DNA from: an uncultured bacterium | Lineage (GTDB): Bacteria; Planctomycetota; Phycisphaerae; Phycisphaerales; UBA1924 | Length of the DNA stretch: 64,000 bases | Assembly: GCA_903834785.1 (NCBI GenBank) | Contig: CAILKP010000049.1 | Span: 1-64,000 of the forward strand | Direction: 5' to 3' | In this document: one piece after another, positions 56,620 to 64,000 of the stretch | Numbering within the stretch: position 1 is the first letter of the stretch | How the letters are laid out: every line of letters begins with the position of its first letter | Notes under the pieces: generated by a model | What the model was told of the DNA's origin: nothing | The model's input: only the letters and a program-made list of their open reading frames with translations | Database searches by the model: none | Translations under genes and position numbers: made by a program

Positions 56620-57234
56620 ATGAAGAAGATCACTGCCCTTGCCGCTATCGTCCTGTTCGCCGGCGCCGCCGCCGCCCAGACCCACACCGAAATCGGTGAC
56701 GCCCCCCAGCTGCTGTTCGGCCAGGACACCGGCGCGGGCTCGCTGAACTTCATCGCCGGCGCGCTGGGTTCCTCCGCCGACGTCGACCTGTACGCGATCA
56801 CCATCACCGACTTCGCCAACTTCAGCGCCACGGTCAACACCAACGCGGGTATTGACACGCAGCTGTTCCTGTTCAACGCGGCCGGCCTGGGCATCGTGTT
56901 CAATGATGACTTCGGCGCGGGCCTCACCTCCGCGCTTGTTCCCTCAGCCTTCATCACCGCCAACGGCCAGTACTTCCTGGCCATCTCGTCCTACAACATC
57001 GACCCGACCTCTTCGGCCGGCAACATCTTCCCGAACACCTTCAGCGGCCAGATCGGTGCGACCGGCGCGGGTGCCGCCGCCGCTCTCAGCGGCTGGACCG
57101 GCGCTGGCTTCGTCAGCGGCACCGGCGAGTACGAAATCCGCCTGACCGGCGCTGCCGGCGCCATCATCCCGACCCCGGGCGCCGCTGCCCTGCTGGGCCT
57201 CGGTGGCCTCGCCGCCTTCCGTCGCCGCCGCTAA
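56620..57234 (+). CDS. Secreted protein with a C-terminal PTPGA sorting signal
   Basis: 204 residues. A signal peptide (1-19, MKKITALAAIVLFAGAAAA) is followed by a beta-rich domain resembling a pre-peptidase C-terminal/DVUA0089-type fold (DVDLYAITITDFANFSATVNTNAGIDTQLFLFNAAGLG...QYFLAISSYNIDP). It ends with the tripartite tail PTPGAAALLGLGGLAAFRRRR: a short motif, one hydrophobic helix and a basic tail, the Phycisphaerae version of PEP-CTERM sorting. The protein should be cleaved and attached or released at the surface by an exosortase, which is not encoded in this window. Own promoter and terminator; codon use is extremely C-rich at third positions, suggesting high expression. Confidence 0.9.
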   Translation: MKKITALAAIVLFAGAAAAQTHTEIGDAPQLLFGQDTGAGSLNFIAGALGSSADVDLYAITITDFANFSATVNTNAGIDTQLFLFNAAGLGIVFNDDFGAGLTSALVPSAFITANGQYFLAISSYNIDPTSSAGNIFPNTFSGQIGATGAGAAAALSGWTGAGFVSGTGEYEIRLTGAAGAIIPTPGAAALLGLGGLAAFRRRR

Positions 57235-57574: not shown

Positions 57575-57643
57575 CTGCGCTCCCCATTTGCCCCGTTTGA
57601 CCCGTGCGACGCGATCCGCACCGCAACACGCCACACCAAATGA

Positions 57644-57679
57644 CAAGGGCAATCGTGTTGCGAAGCACGATTGCCCTTG
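57644..57679 (-). terminator. Hairpin after the hydrolase-propeller gene
   Basis: Perfect 14-bp stem CAAGGGCAATCGTG / CACGATTGCCCTTG with an 8-base loop, followed on the minus strand by TCATTTGG. It lies about 70 bases beyond the stop of the minus-strand gene. Confidence 0.55.
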
Positions 57680-57747
57680 CCTTGAGGAGAGAGCGGGGTT
57701 TTCGATTCCCGGCTCGTCCGGGTCTGATGGACTTTACGCGGCCGACG

Positions 57748-60288
57748 TCACTTCCGTTCCAGTTTGTGAACATCAACTCCGATGCTGTACAGCGTCAGGG
57801 CCGAGTTGCTCATCGGCGCTTCGGCCGTGCCCCGGACGACGCGAATCTTGTTCACCGCGTTGCCGAAGCCTGCAGGTGACCAGGTCTTGCCGCCATCGGC
57901 GGTGTAGAAACCGCCCGGCATCGCACCGGCCCAGCCCTCGTTCTCGCTGGCAAACGCGATGCCGAACTGGCGGACCTTGTGATCATCAACCAGTGGAATC
58001 TCGCTGAAAGTCCTGCCGCCATCGGTGGTCTTGGCAATGAATCGCTGGCTCACCGAGGTGTCCGGGTTGTACGCCTGAATCGTCACGTAGCCGGTTGTTT
58101 TGGTGGGAAACGAGATCTTCCAGGTCAGCTCGTATGGCCGCGACGACTGATAGACCTTGTTCCACGTCTTGCCGCCATCCGTCGTCGCCAGAATCAGCGC
58201 ATTGGCCTCGGCCACATCGGCCGAGGTCGCCCCGGCGATGAAGCCGTGCTCATGGTCGTTAAAGTGCACATCAAAGACCATCTTGCACTGATCGGGCAGT
58301 TTGACTTGCTGCCACGTCTCACCGAGATCGTCGGAGTAGATGTACGCCGCCGGTGAGCCCGCGCGTCCGCCGGCGACGATGCGTGTGCGTGTCTCCAGCT
58401 TGCCCGCGTTGACGAACTCCGTGCGCACCACCTCGATAGCGCACAGCCCCACCACCTGCGGGCCCGGAATCGTCGTCACCGCCGACCAGGTCGCCCCGCC
58501 GTCGGTCGTGCGGTACAGCGGCGTGGCGTCCGTCACGTTGGGGAAGTAGCCGGGGCCGATGTTGCCTGCCAGGCCGATCTTCCCATCAACAAACGCGATG
58601 CAGCGGAAGTACGTGCCCGGCTTGTGCAGTTGCATCGTCCAGTTCGCCCCGCCGTCGCTGGTCTTGAAGATCTTGCCCGCGCCGTTGACGTACCAACCGG
58701 TGGTGGGCGAGATGAACGCGATGTCGTCCTGCTTGCCGGGGTACCGCTCGGTTGTCAGCTTCGTCCACTTCGCTGCAGCAGTGGGGGCCACCGCCGCAGC
58801 CGGGCCCGCCGCGGGTTGCTCGCCGGCTGGCAGCGAGCCCCTGGCGGACCCGGCGCCGGGTTCCCCGCCGGCTGGCTTGTCCAGTGAAGCAATCCAGTTC
58901 AGCACCGCCGGCGGCAGCGTGTCGGCCCACTTGCCCTGGCCCATTGCCCCCAGGCTGGCCTGAAGCGTGTCGTGCGTGGTAAACGCGTGGTCGGCCTTGG
59001 GCAGCGAGAGCATCGTGGCCGTGGCCTTGTTGGTGCCGCGGCCGGAGACAACCGTCGCGATCGCCTCGTGGTCACCCGCGGTCGTCACCCAGTCGTACTC
59101 GCCGTAAATCGCCAGCGTGTGGCCGGTGGCACGCGTCCACGCCGCGGCAATGTTGATGTCCTGCAGCTCGTGATAAAAGCTCATGTGCCGGCTGCTGAGC
59201 CGGTCACGCGTCATCATCGGGCTCTCCTGCTGCGGCTTGAACTCCGGGTGCTTGTCCCAGATCTGCCCCAGCGTCATCTTCTCCAGCAGCATCATCGAGT
59301 CAATCCGCGACTGGGCCTGCACCATCTCCGTCACCTCGCCGGGGCTCGCACCCTGCAGCCCGGCCTGGCGGCGCGTGTTCTCCAGCGAGTACTCCAGCCA
59401 CGTGCGCATCAGCGTGCCGTAGACGATCACGCCCTTGACCGGCACCTTCTCGGTAATAAACGGCGCCATCACGCCGCCCATGGAGTGGCCAAACAGGTAC
59501 ACGCGCTCCGGGTCCACACCCGGCAGCGAGCGCAGTTGCTCGGCTGCGGCGATGTACCCCGCCAGCTCGGTTGAGAAGTTGATGTCGCCGCACGGCGGAC
59601 CTTCCGAGTCTCCCATTCCCGGCTTGTCGACCCGCATCGTGATGAACCCCGCATCGGCCATGGCTCGCACCAGGCGTGTGTCCACCGCATCGCGTGCCGA
59701 GGGTGCCGGGCGATCAATGCTCGCGCAGTAGATGCCTTGAACAAACAGGAACGCCGGCCGCTTGCCGCCGACAACCTTGTCAGCCCCCGTGCCGGCCTCC
59801 GGCTCGGTGATGATCGTCCGCAGCCGGTAGCCCGCCGGCACGGCCACCGAGTCATAACGCAGTGTGGAGCCCGGCATCACCTCCGCCGGTGCGGCAACAA
59901 CCGGCAGCTCCAGCGTGATCGTCTTGCCCTCACGCATCACCTCAATCGGCAGCGTCGCCGTCTTCGGTGACCGCAGTGCCAGCATCAGGGCCTCGGTCGT
60001 CGGCGTGCGCAAGCCCGCCAGCGACAGCAGCTCATCACCGGTCTTCAGCCCGGCGCGGGCACCCGCCCCATCGGGCACCAGCGTGCCCACGGTCAGGCCG
60101 CCGGCTGTACCCGGGCTGAACGCCGCGCCGATGCTCGCACGGCGGGCCAGAGCTTCAGCCGCCGGTTTGGCAGCAGGTGCAGCCGCTGGCTTGGCAAGCG
60201 CCGCCGCCGGAAGCACCGGCCCCGCAAGTCCCGCGGCAGTGAGTGCCAGTGACAGAAACAAACGATGCAACTGAATGTGAAGTTTCAT
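57748..60288 (-). CDS. Exported PDZ - alpha/beta-hydrolase - beta-propeller fusion protein
   Basis: 846 residues, predicted periplasmic. A signal peptide (about 1-32) precedes a PDZ domain (about 52-130; GLTVGTLVPDGAGARAGLKTGDELLSLAGLRTPT). An alpha/beta-hydrolase follows (about 140-475) with nucleophile elbow FGHSMGG (S269), acid in GEYDW (D399) and His in KADHAF (H434). The C-terminal half (about 505-840) is a Ycf48/BNR-type propeller with repeated (T/S)-x-DGG-x-(T/N)-W motifs (TSDGGANWT, TTDGGATWS, TTDGGKTWN, TADGGKTWS). I know of no described protein combining all three. Third gene of a minus-strand set, 45 bases after the regulator gene. Confidence 0.85.
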   Translation of the reverse strand: MKLHIQLHRLFLSLALTAAGLAGPVLPAAALAKPAAAPAAKPAAEALARRASIGAAFSPGTAGGLTVGTLVPDGAGARAGLKTGDELLSLAGLRTPTTEALMLALRSPKTATLPIEVMREGKTITLELPVVAAPAEVMPGSTLRYDSVAVPAGYRLRTIITEPEAGTGADKVVGGKRPAFLFVQGIYCASIDRPAPSARDAVDTRLVRAMADAGFITMRVDKPGMGDSEGPPCGDINFSTELAGYIAAAEQLRSLPGVDPERVYLFGHSMGGVMAPFITEKVPVKGVIVYGTLMRTWLEYSLENTRRQAGLQGASPGEVTEMVQAQSRIDSMMLLEKMTLGQIWDKHPEFKPQQESPMMTRDRLSSRHMSFYHELQDINIAAAWTRATGHTLAIYGEYDWVTTAGDHEAIATVVSGRGTNKATATMLSLPKADHAFTTHDTLQASLGAMGQGKWADTLPPAVLNWIASLDKPAGGEPGAGSARGSLPAGEQPAAGPAAAVAPTAAAKWTKLTTERYPGKQDDIAFISPTTGWYVNGAGKIFKTSDGGANWTMQLHKPGTYFRCIAFVDGKIGLAGNIGPGYFPNVTDATPLYRTTDGGATWSAVTTIPGPQVVGLCAIEVVRTEFVNAGKLETRTRIVAGGRAGSPAAYIYSDDLGETWQQVKLPDQCKMVFDVHFNDHEHGFIAGATSADVAEANALILATTDGGKTWNKVYQSSRPYELTWKISFPTKTTGYVTIQAYNPDTSVSQRFIAKTTDGGRTFSEIPLVDDHKVRQFGIAFASENEGWAGAMPGGFYTADGGKTWSPAGFGNAVNKIRVVRGTAEAPMSNSALTLYSIGVDVHKLERK

Positions 60289-60333
60289 GGATCGGGTTGT
60301 GTGAGAGTGTGATCGGGGCGAGCCTGGCTCGCC

Positions 60334-61056
60334 TTAAACGGACGATGTCGGTGATGCGGGAACAGCCGAAGCAGACGATGAGGCCGCGCTCGCAGACTTC
60401 CGCGCACGCTTGGGTCCGGCCTTCGCCGGCTCGGTGTCCGCCGCTGCCGCGGCCTTGCCCCGCCGCGAACGCACCACAGGCATCAGCGTGCACAGGTTCA
60501 CGTACAACTCACCCTTGCGGCGGCGGCGGCCCCGCTCGCAGAGGGCGTGAATCCGCCCGACCAGCGTGCGCAGCTGTGCCACCGCCTCCGGCTCCAGCCA
60601 CGTCAGGTCGTAGTCAATCAGCAGGTTCCGGTTCTCCGGTTCCAGCACCAGCGCCCGCGCCGCGGCGGCCTTGCCCGCGTACCGCGACACGCTCCGCGCA
60701 AACACGCTGACAGTCTCCGCAATCGCCGTCCGCTCCGCGGCACCCGTGCTGTCGGCAAACGCAATGCGATAGTCGCTGGCCGTCAGATCAAACACCTGCT
60801 CGGTCCGTCGCCCCGCCTTGCGAAAGCCCACCTCCCGCACGATCCCCGCCTGCATCAGCAGCCGGATGTGGCGGTACAGCCCGTCTGCCGGACGCCCCAG
60901 CAGCTCGGCAATCTCCGCGATCGCGCACGGTGCGGCACACCGCATCGCCTCGATGATCTCGATGCGGGCCGGCGCGATCATCGTCCGCCACACCGCCGGT
61001 GAGGTGATCAGTTGTACTTTCGGTCGCGTCGCAACCGGTGACCTGGCCATGCTCAT
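60334..61056 (-). CDS. Winged-helix (ArsR-like) regulator with a basic C-terminal tail
   Basis: 240 residues. Winged helix at about 20-95: AVWRTMIAPARIEIIEAMRCAAPCAIAEIAELLGRPADGLYRHIRLLMQAGIVREVGFRKAGRRTEQVFDL. A helical sensor-like part (about 95-185) follows, and a Lys/Ala/Ser-rich tail closes the protein. Cysteines near residue 38 do not form a canonical metal site. The gene lies 6 bases after the small beta-flower gene and 45 bases before the fusion-protein gene on the same strand, and probably regulates this operon. Confidence 0.78.
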   Translation of the reverse strand: MSMARSPVATRPKVQLITSPAVWRTMIAPARIEIIEAMRCAAPCAIAEIAELLGRPADGLYRHIRLLMQAGIVREVGFRKAGRRTEQVFDLTASDYRIAFADSTGAAERTAIAETVSVFARSVSRYAGKAAAARALVLEPENRNLLIDYDLTWLEPEAVAQLRTLVGRIHALCERGRRRRKGELYVNLCTLMPVVRSRRGKAAAAADTEPAKAGPKRARKSASAASSSASAVPASPTSSV

Positions 61057-61062
61057 CCTCCC

Positions 61063-61362
61063 TTAGGTGCAGTACACCAGAAACGCCGCGCCCAGCAGCG
61101 CACGCTGCGAGTCGGTCCCCGTCGTCACATTGGCAATCGTCTGCCCGTGCCGATTGACAACCTGGCTGCCGTGAACGTGCAGCAGCGTCTCCCCTCCGCT
61201 GCGCGAGACCCGGCCGCCCTCGACCGTCGCCAGCAACTGGTTGTGCAGGTTCAGCAGCCGGTTCTCCGCAACCCGCGCAATCTCATGGCCCTGAAGGTTC
61301 AGGACGCTCTCGCCGCGGAGTCGAAGGATCGGCTGGCCGTGCAGGTTGATCAGTTCGGTCAT
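61063..61362 (-). CDS. 4-fold beta-flower-like small protein
   Basis: About 99 residues from the ATG at 61362. It is a series of short repeated strands around L-x-N/x-L-H/Q-G-x-x-I/V: INLHGQPILRLRGESVLNLQGHEIARVAENRLLNLHNQLLATVEGG, LLHVHGSQVVNRHGQTIANVTTG. This repeat matches the 4-fold beta flower pattern (predicted four-bladed small beta protein). Function unknown; the protein ends in a hydrophobic stretch (LLGAAFLVYC). It is the first gene of the operon with the winged-helix regulator. Frame upstream of 61362 is not conserved-looking. Confidence 0.7.
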   Translation of the reverse strand: MTELINLHGQPILRLRGESVLNLQGHEIARVAENRLLNLHNQLLATVEGGRVSRSGGETLLHVHGSQVVNRHGQTIANVTTGTDSQRALLGAAFLVYCT

Positions 61363-61526
61363 GGTGTGCCTCGCGTGGTGGGGCGGTTCCATCGTTGACG
61401 AAATGCAAATCGAATCAACCATTGACATTTATTAGGAAATGTCAACAGACGGTTGCAGGGTACCCCGCCCAACCCGCCGCGGGCAACCCCCGCGCCCTCT
61501 GCCAGCCCGGCGGCCGATAATCCCCC

Positions 61527-62159
61527 ATGCACCTTCGTTCCACGTCGCCCTCCCGCTGGCGGCTTCTGCTGGCCATGGCCCTCGCCGCCGCGGCACTCGG
61601 CACCGCCTCGGAACTCGGCCACCTCCAGTGGACCAGCGGCCGGCCCTCCGGCCTCCGGGGTCGGGGCGTCCCCTTTGATGCCCAGTCCGTGGCCTATTGG
61701 CGGGAATCAGGATTCACCCTCTGGGCTGGTGCAATCTCAATCTGGTCCGCCCCGCGGCTGACGTCCCAGGAGAGCTTCGTCTGGGGCGGCGGCGGGGCCA
61801 GCTTCTTCGGGGTTGATACCACTCTCGGCGGCCCGAGTGATGCCGATACCGCCGCCCGCTGGCTGCCTCGCCTGGCCATAGGCACGCCTAGTACGGTCGG
61901 CCCCGCCATGCCCGGCCTGGCCGGTGCCTCCTGCCTCATGCTGCCCATCTGGCCGCTTGCCACCCTGCTCGCCGCCGCCGCCGGTTGGAGTTACCGCCGC
62001 CATCGCCGCCGCCTCCCCGGCAGCTGCGCCCGCTGTGGCTACGACCGCGCTGGCCTCGGCTCACGCCCCTGCCCGGAGTGTGGCGGCACCGAGATCATCC
62101 AGTTCGCCAATCCAGTGGCCATCCCCGCCGCAGCGGCTGACGGTCAGCCCAAAGCCTGA
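61527..62159 (+). CDS. Membrane protein ending in a zinc ribbon
   Basis: 210 residues. Signal-anchor (about 11-30), a Gly/Trp-rich exported part (about 35-130), a second membrane segment (about 142-155, WPLATLLAAAAGW) and a cytosolic basic linker followed by a four-Cys zinc ribbon CARCGYDRAG...PCPECG (CxxC...CxxC). The CGYD...CPECG ending is very common in Phycisphaerae membrane proteins of unknown function. Its 3' end overlaps the convergent photolyase-fusion gene by 16 bases. Confidence 0.75.
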   Translation: MHLRSTSPSRWRLLLAMALAAAALGTASELGHLQWTSGRPSGLRGRGVPFDAQSVAYWRESGFTLWAGAISIWSAPRLTSQESFVWGGGGASFFGVDTTLGGPSDADTAARWLPRLAIGTPSTVGPAMPGLAGASCLMLPIWPLATLLAAAAGWSYRRHRRRLPGSCARCGYDRAGLGSRPCPECGGTEIIQFANPVAIPAAAADGQPKA

Positions 62160-64000
62160 TCGCCGGTTCGAATCGCCAGTTGCCCCATCACCTGCCCCGC
62201 CAGCGCCGCACCGCTCAGCACGGCCTTCTCCACGCGTGACGGTCCCTGCCCGCACCAGTCGCCGCACACCCCAAGCAGCGACTGGGCATCCAGCACGCAC
62301 GGTGCATCCAGCGGCGTCTCCACCGCGGCATACCGCCAGCGGTGCGCCGCCACAAAGCTCGGCTCCGGCAGCGATGACTCGGCCATCATCCCCGGCGACT
62401 GCCGGCCAAGTGCCGCCGCGGCATGCCGGCTGAACGCCGCCAGCATCTCCGCCGCAGCCCGGTCGGGCGTCAGTTCCACATTCGCCTGCGACCACGCGTG
62501 CGAGGCGTGCAGCACCCAGCGTTCGCGCACCCCAGCCCGCCCGCCATCCGCCCCTTCGCCCGGCCCGCCACCAATTGCCGCCGCCGGTCGATCGTTCACC
62601 CCCGGCCGTCCGGGCTTGGAGTTCTCCAGTGCCACCCACGACAGCACCGCATCGTTCCGCACAAATGCAGCGTCAAACGGCAGCGACAGCGGCCGGTCAA
62701 AGGCAACCATCGTCGCCCACGTCGGCAGCATCCGCACCGGCGCAATCGTTTCGAGTACGCCCGCCGCAACCGGCATCGTCCCCAGCACCTTGCGGATGTT
62801 CTCCGGCGGTGTGGCCAGCACCAGCACATCAAAGCTCGCCGGCACCTGCTGCGTGGTGCCATCCTCGCCTGCAACCAGCAGCGTCCACTGGCCCTGGCTG
62901 AACTCCGCCCCCGCAATCTCCGTCTTGTACCGCGCCGTCACGCCCGCCCGCGCGGCTGTTGAGCCCAGATGCACGCACACCGCGTTCATCCCCGGCCGGC
63001 CCACAAAGCGTGAGAAGCCCGTCGCCGCCGAGTCGTGCTGTCCATCGCCGGAGCTCGCATCATGCGGCGTCGGCGGCTGGCCCGGCCGCAGATCCACCAG
63101 CCGCGGCGTCCACCGGCTGATGATCCCGTCGTGCAGCCAGCTGTCAGCCAGCCGCCGCAGCAGCGGCGAGCGCGCCGTAAAGAACTGCGCGCCGTGGTCA
63201 AACTGATCGCCCCCCGTCATCCGCGTGCTCGTCCGTCCGCCCGGCCCGCGTCCCTTGTCAAGCAGTGTCACGCTCAGCCCGTGGTCCGCCAGCGTGCGGG
63301 CGCACAGCAGCCCCGCGATGCCGGCCCCAACCACCGCAATCCGCGGCGTCGAGCGTCCGCCCTCGGCCCTCGGCACGGCAAACGCCGACCGCGAGATCCG
63401 GCTGTTGTACCGCCCCACATCCAGCCGCATGCTGTGCTCGGCCGTCGTCCGCGGCCTAACCGATCCCAGCACCGGTACCTCTGGTGAAAACGGCCGATCA
63501 AACAGCCCCAGGCACCACAGGATCCCGCCGTAACTCGCCGGGTCGCGACCGTCGAGCGCGTAGCGGTGGTTCAGGTCAATCAGCAGCTCCAGCGTGCGGG
63601 CCGCATGCGGCGTCCAGCCCAGCAGCGCCTTGCCCCATGTCATCCGCACGTTGTTGTGCAGCTCGCCGTGGATCAGCAGGCTCCGCTGGGCCGCGTTCCA
63701 CAGGTCGTCGGCCGTCTCGGCCCGCGCCAGCATCTCCCAGCTGTACAGCGCGGGGCGCCGGTCAACCTCATGGGCCCGCAGCGTCTGAAGTGCCCACGTC
63801 GGGATCGAATCCGTCGTGCCATGATCGGGCCGATACCGGCACCACGTGTACGCCACCTCACGCCAGATCAGCAGCTCATCAAGGAACTTCTCCGCCCCCG
63901 CACTGCCCGCCGCCGCGGCCTGCCGGGCCACCAGCATCGGGCTGATCATCCCGTAATGCAGATACGCGCTCATCCGCGACACGCCGTCACGCAGCGGGTC
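62144..64000 (-). CDS. Photolyase C-terminal part fused to a renalase-like oxidoreductase (partial)
   Basis: The 5' end lies beyond the window; the reading frame is open through position 64000 (DPLRDGVSRMSAYLHYGMISP). Residues up to about 190 (counted from 63982) are a cryptochrome/photolyase FAD-binding domain: SRMSAYLHYGMISP, KFLDELLIWREVAYTWCRY, LWNAAQRSLLIHGELHNNVRMTWGKALLGW, DLNHRYALDGRDPASYGGILWCLGLFDRPF. The rest is a renalase-like FAD/NAD(P) oxidoreductase: Rossmann start VVGAGIAGLLCARTL, LLDKGRGPGGRTSTR, DHGAQFFTAR and the C-terminal CGDWCGQGPSRVEKAVLSGAALAGQV. Two flavin-binding modules in one chain are notable; DNA repair plus an unknown redox role is inferred. Confidence 0.85.
   Translation of the reverse strand, partial: DPLRDGVSRMSAYLHYGMISPMLVARQAAAAGSAGAEKFLDELLIWREVAYTWCRYRPDHGTTDSIPTWALQTLRAHEVDRRPALYSWEMLARAETADDLWNAAQRSLLIHGELHNNVRMTWGKALLGWTPHAARTLELLIDLNHRYALDGRDPASYGGILWCLGLFDRPFSPEVPVLGSVRPRTTAEHSMRLDVGRYNSRISRSAFAVPRAEGGRSTPRIAVVGAGIAGLLCARTLADHGLSVTLLDKGRGPGGRTSTRMTGGDQFDHGAQFFTARSPLLRRLADSWLHDGIISRWTPRLVDLRPGQPPTPHDASSGDGQHDSAATGFSRFVGRPGMNAVCVHLGSTAARAGVTARYKTEIAGAEFSQGQWTLLVAGEDGTTQQVPASFDVLVLATPPENIRKVLGTMPVAAGVLETIAPVRMLPTWATMVAFDRPLSLPFDAAFVRNDAVLSWVALENSKPGRPGVNDRPAAAIGGGPGEGADGGRAGVRERWVLHASHAWSQANVELTPDRAAAEMLAAFSRHAAAALGRQSPGMMAESSLPEPSFVAAHRWRYAAVETPLDAPCVLDAQSLLGVCGDWCGQGPSRVEKAVLSGAALAGQVMGQLAIRTGDQALG

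Follow-up and report, generated by a model that had tools for sequence, protein, structure and literature searches.

An alpha/beta serine hydrolase and a beta-propeller are combined in one chain in the prolyl oligopeptidase family S9 (POP, OPB, DPP, ACC; PMC4522959). In that family the propeller is N-terminal to the catalytic domain. Propellers carrying Asp-box sequences are represented by Ycf48 (HCF136), a photosystem II assembly factor that binds peptide, and in tricorn protease and its factor F1 a propeller and a PDZ domain are combined with a serine hydrolase. The hydrolase fold and the Ser-Asp-His triad, on their part, are those of EstD, the feruloyl esterases, MHETase/PET46 and the TTL lipase. 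Here, a unit of three genes that joins such parts is described in a stretch of 64,000 nucleotides (the window; positions 1 to 64,000 of contig CAILKP010000049.1, assembly GCA_903834785.1) from an uncultured planctomycete of the Phycisphaerales. All three genes lie on the minus strand and encode a beta-flower protein, a winged-helix regulator and a PDZ/hydrolase/propeller protein. Taken as a whole, the locus is probably an operon under its own control, whose product, an exported serine hydrolase, acts together with a Ycf48-like propeller. The original prediction, made from the sequence alone, had delimited the three open reading frames correctly, and they and the parts of the largest product are arranged as follows:

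61063-61362, minus strand: 5-fold beta-flower gene, 99 residues, Pfam PF21785; an accessory, not conserved in relatives
60334-61050, minus strand: winged-helix regulator gene (ArsR-like, HVO_A0114/HTH_20), 238 residues; alternative start at 61056
57748-60288, minus strand: gene for the exported protein of 846 residues in which a PDZ domain, an alpha/beta hydrolase and a Ycf48-like propeller are joined
60196-60288, minus strand: predicted signal peptide, about residues 1-31, with a charged n-region, a hydrophobic core and a small-residue cleavage region read from the sequence
59899-60141, minus strand: PDZ domain, about residues 50-130, weak in the window protein and above cut-off in homologues
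58879-59856, minus strand: alpha/beta hydrolase with a helical insertion, residues 145-470; S269, D399, H434; C188-C233 as a predicted disulfide
57751-58767, minus strand: Asp-box beta-propeller of the Ycf48-like kind, residues 508-846, from profile and fold matches

That the large protein unites three folds in one exported chain and keeps an intact triad had been proposed from the start, and both statements are borne out. Pfam matches above the cut-off comprise PSII_BNR/YCF48 (5.5e-17), four BNR repeats and Hydrolase_4 (7e-10); the PDZ domain falls under it in the window protein (PDZ_6 0.004, PDZ_2 0.006) and is recovered in homologues, with 5e-10 in the genome G084 and 1.4e-8 at the locus L003. 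Among the three gene products, only this one shows a putative signal peptide at its N-terminus. The nucleophile elbow reads GHSMGG (GxSxG) and the Ser-Asp-His residues follow in canonical order with the numbering originally given; in an alignment of 28 homologous hydrolases, Ser occupies the S269 column in 25, and D399 and H434 are invariant. C188 and C233 covary in the same alignment (both in 21, neither in 7), and this presence or absence as a pair fits a disulfide in an exported protein. In sequence as well as in fold, the hydrolase is closest to feruloyl esterases, MHETase/PET46 and the TTL lipase, with EstD also among its relatives, and the helical insertion would serve as a lid. For the propeller, the nearest match is Ycf48 (Foldseek matches 5ojr and 5oj5), whose solved structures include one with a bound D1 peptide.

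A first line of evidence comes from the way in which the same parts are distributed in other genomes. G084, a genome of the same order and another family, encodes the full three-domain protein (52% identity over residues 31-843) behind a regulator 40% identical to that of the window, and the fused form is also present in two Flavobacteriales metagenome-assembled genomes (MAGs); searches over 199 genomes of the order of these MAGs and 295 of their class brought the fused Bacteroidia loci to 14 in total. Fused homologues in two phyla thus rule out a sequencing or assembly fusion, and the refuting case that had been envisaged, namely domains encoded by separate genes in all relatives, does not hold. 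The separate state exists as well: the PDZ-hydrolase and the propeller lie on different contigs in G619; in G944, the hydrolase and propeller genes are adjacent, 6 nucleotides apart and with a signal peptide on each, and the tail of the hydrolase resembles the linker of the Flavobacteriales fusions; and in G871 a propeller, a fusion and a hydrolase stand in tandem. On well-supported branches of the trees, at least five changes between the fused and the separate state are counted for the propeller and at least three for the hydrolase; these may be independent fusions as well as fissions. This recurrent fusion and separation in two phyla argues that hydrolase and propeller work together.

Members of the propeller family are also met in other company. 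In a Planctomycetaceae MAG (L005 5428-7065), a lipocalin-like domain with no Pfam match is fused to the propeller, and in a Phycisphaerales MAG (L006 5258-5824) a lipocalin-like gene stands separately, divergent from a PDZ-hydrolase, so that through these two loci the same parts are linked by fusion a second time. Three Bacteroidia propellers (L134 6000-7751, L138 and L139) carry a C-terminal LolA-like domain of about 240 residues, a weak match. Plasmids of Rhizobium leguminosarum and Bradyrhizobium encode a distant family member annotated as ferritin-like, and in R. leguminosarum (L161 3644-6373) the propeller shares its chain with FlgD-Ig and ferritin-like (PF12902) domains. A plasmid-borne system was considered and rejected, since plasmids hold distant halves only, none covering most of the protein.

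The second line of evidence is the linkage to a regulator. The regulator of the window has Pfam matches above the cut-off to PF25212 HVO_A0114 (7.5e-9) and PF12840 HTH_20 (7.7e-8), and the same family is encoded directly upstream of the fusion in the window and G084, of a propeller alone in G563 and of a hydrolase alone in G260, where the regulator is 29% identical to that of the window. Related regulators precede an exported S8 subtilase in G119 and an S41/Tricorn_C1/PDZ peptidase in G580. In Bacteroidia, an AraC-family regulator is directly adjacent in 11 of the 14 fused loci and also precedes three genes for a hydrolase alone, where the gaps that were measured span 23-64 nucleotides; inspection by eye revealed no obvious shared motif upstream of the AraC genes. 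The gene-order check advised by the original prediction recovers the order regulator, then enzyme, in three other genomes of the phylum, with AraC instead in those 11 loci, and the other refuting case that it had named, a different order everywhere, does not hold either. A dedicated local regulator is the rule, and its family differs between phyla. In G084 and G563 (L041 and L068), the unit is followed by a gene for a DUF4097-like lipoprotein and then by ATP-binding cassette (ABC) transporter genes; in G084, one of these encodes a large permease that may have a peptidase portion. A role as a defence system was also considered and rejected: PADLOC gave no model for the enzyme or the beta-flower, and the weak matches of the regulator concern the winged helix only.

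Three further elements accompany the genes in the window:

61422-61445, no strand assigned: candidate operator, a perfect 24-bp (base-pair) palindrome TTGACATTT-N6-AAATGTCAA, whose geometry recurs before the regulators of relatives
60317-60333, minus strand: GC-rich hairpin directly after the regulator stop codon (z -3.0)
57642-57681, minus strand: terminator-like hairpin with a 16-bp stem, about 70 nucleotides past the enzyme stop codon (z -6.4)

The palindrome, which precedes the first start codon of the operon (that of the beta-flower) by 59 bp, is unique in the 4.3-Mb genome when scanned at up to 3 mismatches; the TTGACA inside its arm may be a -35 element. The same 24-bp TTG-N18-CAA geometry is present upstream of the same-family regulator in G563 and G084, and G119 has a 25-bp version nested in a longer 35-bp palindrome; in all three, a -35-like hexamer occupies the centre of the palindrome and a plausible -10 follows after 16-17 bp. 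Against Markov-simulated sequences, the p values are 0.010 for the window, 0.023 for G563, 0.066 for G084 and 0.003 for G119, and in the same comparison the regulator promoters of G587 (p 0.063, a different sequence) and G580 (p 0.70) do not share this palindrome. The operator was also looked for, and not found, before the regulators of G260 and G580. Within the operon, the originally given distance of 45 bases between regulator and enzyme genes stands, while that of 6 bases between beta-flower and regulator holds only with the regulator start at 61056; a Shine-Dalgarno-like AAGGGAGG at the beta-flower stop suits the second regulator ATG (61050) better, which makes the gap 12 bases. The hairpin between regulator and enzyme is possibly an expression or stability element. 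With the palindrome at its head, tight gene spacing and the terminator-like hairpin at its tail, a single transcription unit is supported, as had been suggested.

From these data, the following mechanism can be proposed. In the cytosol, the winged-helix regulator would bind the 24-bp palindrome at the promoter and repress its own operon until a signal frees it. The large product would then be exported. Its PDZ domain and propeller would bind a ligand of peptide-like or acylated nature, in which the alpha/beta hydrolase (feruloyl-esterase/lipase/S33 fold) would cut either a peptide or an ester bond. Hydrolase and propeller would be an old functional pair, made as one protein or as two, and the beta-flower a passenger or accessory peculiar to the operon of this lineage. 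The computed basis of this reading consists of the domains, the conservation of the triad, the covarying cysteines, the operon boundaries, the recurring operator geometry, the recurrent fusion and separation, the co-occurrence of the two halves (given below) and the regulator linkage.

Several observations weigh against it. Three of the aligned hydrolases (L050, L051 and L052) have Gly at the nucleophile column while keeping Asp and His, and could be either pseudo-enzymes or cases of a misaligned elbow. The structure model of the whole protein is moderate (mean predicted local distance difference test, pLDDT, 68; predicted template modelling score, pTM, 0.46), too weak to fix the packing of the domains. 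The TTG-N18-CAA geometry is a post hoc motif, set after seeing the sites, and its three matches in a scan of about 186 kb at no more than 2 arm mismatches (the window, G563 and G084), all heading regulator-led operons, include two from one genus, G563 and G084. In the window itself, the -10 is poor and a consensus scan finds no promoter. Finally, in G563 the regulator is followed by a propeller and no hydrolase, and a propeller may thus also function by itself; the excess co-occurrence of a separate hydrolase with a close separate propeller among 289 fusion-free Bacteroidia genomes (6 against 0.76 expected, p 2e-5) is a count that ignores shared ancestry and stems from a search in which few candidates were scored in each genome.

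Could the fusion be coincidental, with two exported proteins that are merely co-transcribed and act independently in separate jobs? Hydrolase-only and propeller-only genes do outnumber the fusions, the propeller of G563 fits such a picture, and so do the lipocalin-like (L005), LolA-like (L134) and ferritin-like (rhizobia) partners of other propellers. However, the same two families are joined and parted repeatedly in two phyla, and the adjacent two-gene form of G944 together with the excess co-occurrence also speak for a pair, which makes independent action unlikely. Somewhat better placed, if still on the unlikely side, is an envelope quality-control or processing peptidase comparable to the tail-specific (S41) or HtrA proteases, in which the PDZ domain and the propeller would bind protein tails and an S33-type hydrolase would trim them. 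The position of the PDZ domain before the catalytic domain agrees with this, as do the D1-bound Ycf48 structures among the best relatives of the propeller, the proteases of the S8 and S41/Tricorn_C1/PDZ types behind related regulators, and the presence of tricorn factor F1 among the fold matches; on the other hand, the closest matches of the hydrolase in sequence and fold are esterases and lipases (MHETase, PET46, TTL, the feruloyl esterases) and EstD. The enzyme may be an esterase or a peptidase, and an exported hydrolase working with its propeller is in either case the reading preferred.

The original prediction went further and suggested that the three genes may be an undescribed periplasmic system for sensing and hydrolysis; in its fullest reading, this would be a conserved system with the beta-flower as an essential member. 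The beta-flower fold was described in 2023, with no function assigned (PMC10584680), and the window protein matches the 5-fold family Bflower_2 (E 6.6e-13, 48.9 bits against a cut-off of 38); its single-sequence model is of low confidence (pLDDT 62) and uninformative on a ten-stranded shallow barrel. In favour of its membership, the beta-flower gene comes first after the operator and has a stop codon that directly adjoins the Shine-Dalgarno sequence of the regulator. Nevertheless, in the class sample it occurs in the genome of the window only (1 of 198, absent from the other 197), the G084, G563 and G260 loci have none, and it rises above the cut-off in 3 of 382 genomes of the phylum, the other two loci being devoid of regulator and enzyme. 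The beta-flower as a conserved partner was therefore rejected, a three-part system that depends on it is very improbable, and it is regarded as a lineage-specific accessory. The periplasmic location of the sensing fares no better, since the regulator (the only predicted sensor) has no signal peptide and neither has the beta-flower, which carries a C-terminal hydrophobic stretch and is predicted to be cytosolic by its sequence; sensing, if there is any, would thus be cytosolic. What stands of the proposed system is an apparently undescribed unit of enzyme and regulator.

Two genes in the surroundings of the unit were also noted. Downstream, the product of a convergent gene (56620-57234) is exported, ends in a PEP-CTERM-like sorting tail and has no Pfam match, and on the other side a protein of about 910 residues, encoded on the minus strand at 62144-64000 and running on into L159 645-3377, unites in a single chain a DNA photolyase (PF00875) and a domain similar to flavin amine oxidases (NAD_binding_8/Amino_oxidase).

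The recurrent fusion ties together two large, uncharacterised exported families, the PDZ hydrolases and the Ycf48-like propellers of non-photosynthetic bacteria, each of which thereby gains a testable partner, and the split pair of G944 together with the fused forms allows a direct test. Furthermore, the conserved local regulators offer a route to the inducing compound and, through the inducer, to the substrate. More tentatively, and as a possibility that falls short of an even chance, the locus might represent a class of exported hydrolases that is widespread in Planctomycetota and Bacteroidota and has no name as yet. The activity of these enzymes would depend on a Ycf48-like propeller dedicated to them, whether part of the same chain or made separately, and a one-component regulator encoded nearby, of the winged-helix or the AraC type, would switch them on; the logic would be like that of the prolyl oligopeptidases, with an independent origin. 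In sum, known parts are arranged here in a new way: the unit of hydrolase and propeller is real, regulated and exported, and its fusion recurs.

A literature search for a fusion of Ycf48, hydrolase and PDZ domains returned no description of it, the related finds being prolyl oligopeptidases, esterases and Ycf48; the domains are known, and their combination and regulation are apparently undescribed. Unlike in S9, the hydrolase precedes the propeller and is not interrupted by it, a PDZ domain is present, the halves also occur as separate genes, and the propeller is of the Ycf48/Asp-box type; a partial Peptidase_S9 match stays at 21.2 bits against a cut-off of 22.6, Hydrolase_4 being the best match. 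The catalytic domain of tricorn belongs to S41 and is not an alpha/beta hydrolase, and a Pfam search found neither S41 nor Tricorn C1 in the large protein, while the fold matches of its hydrolase include factor F1 (1mtz). With respect to Ycf48, the propeller scores 62.4 bits with PSII_BNR (cut-off 27), as expected of an Asp-box propeller, and 74.4 bits with the NCBIfam model NF010237, far from the equivalog cut-off of 326; unlike Ycf48, it is attached to a hydrolase, and the phyla in which it occurs are not known for photosystem II. EstD, the feruloyl esterases, MHETase/PET46 and TTL are about 17-18% identical in the structure matches and have neither a PDZ nor a propeller partner. The beta-flower resembles its described relatives (PF21784-PF21786, PMC10584680) in passing the PF21785 cut-off and in its hydrophobic C-terminal stretch, and differs from them in sitting in a regulator-hydrolase operon. 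The layout of the large protein recalls both the prolyl oligopeptidases and tricorn, and its domain order and catalytic family place it outside the two.

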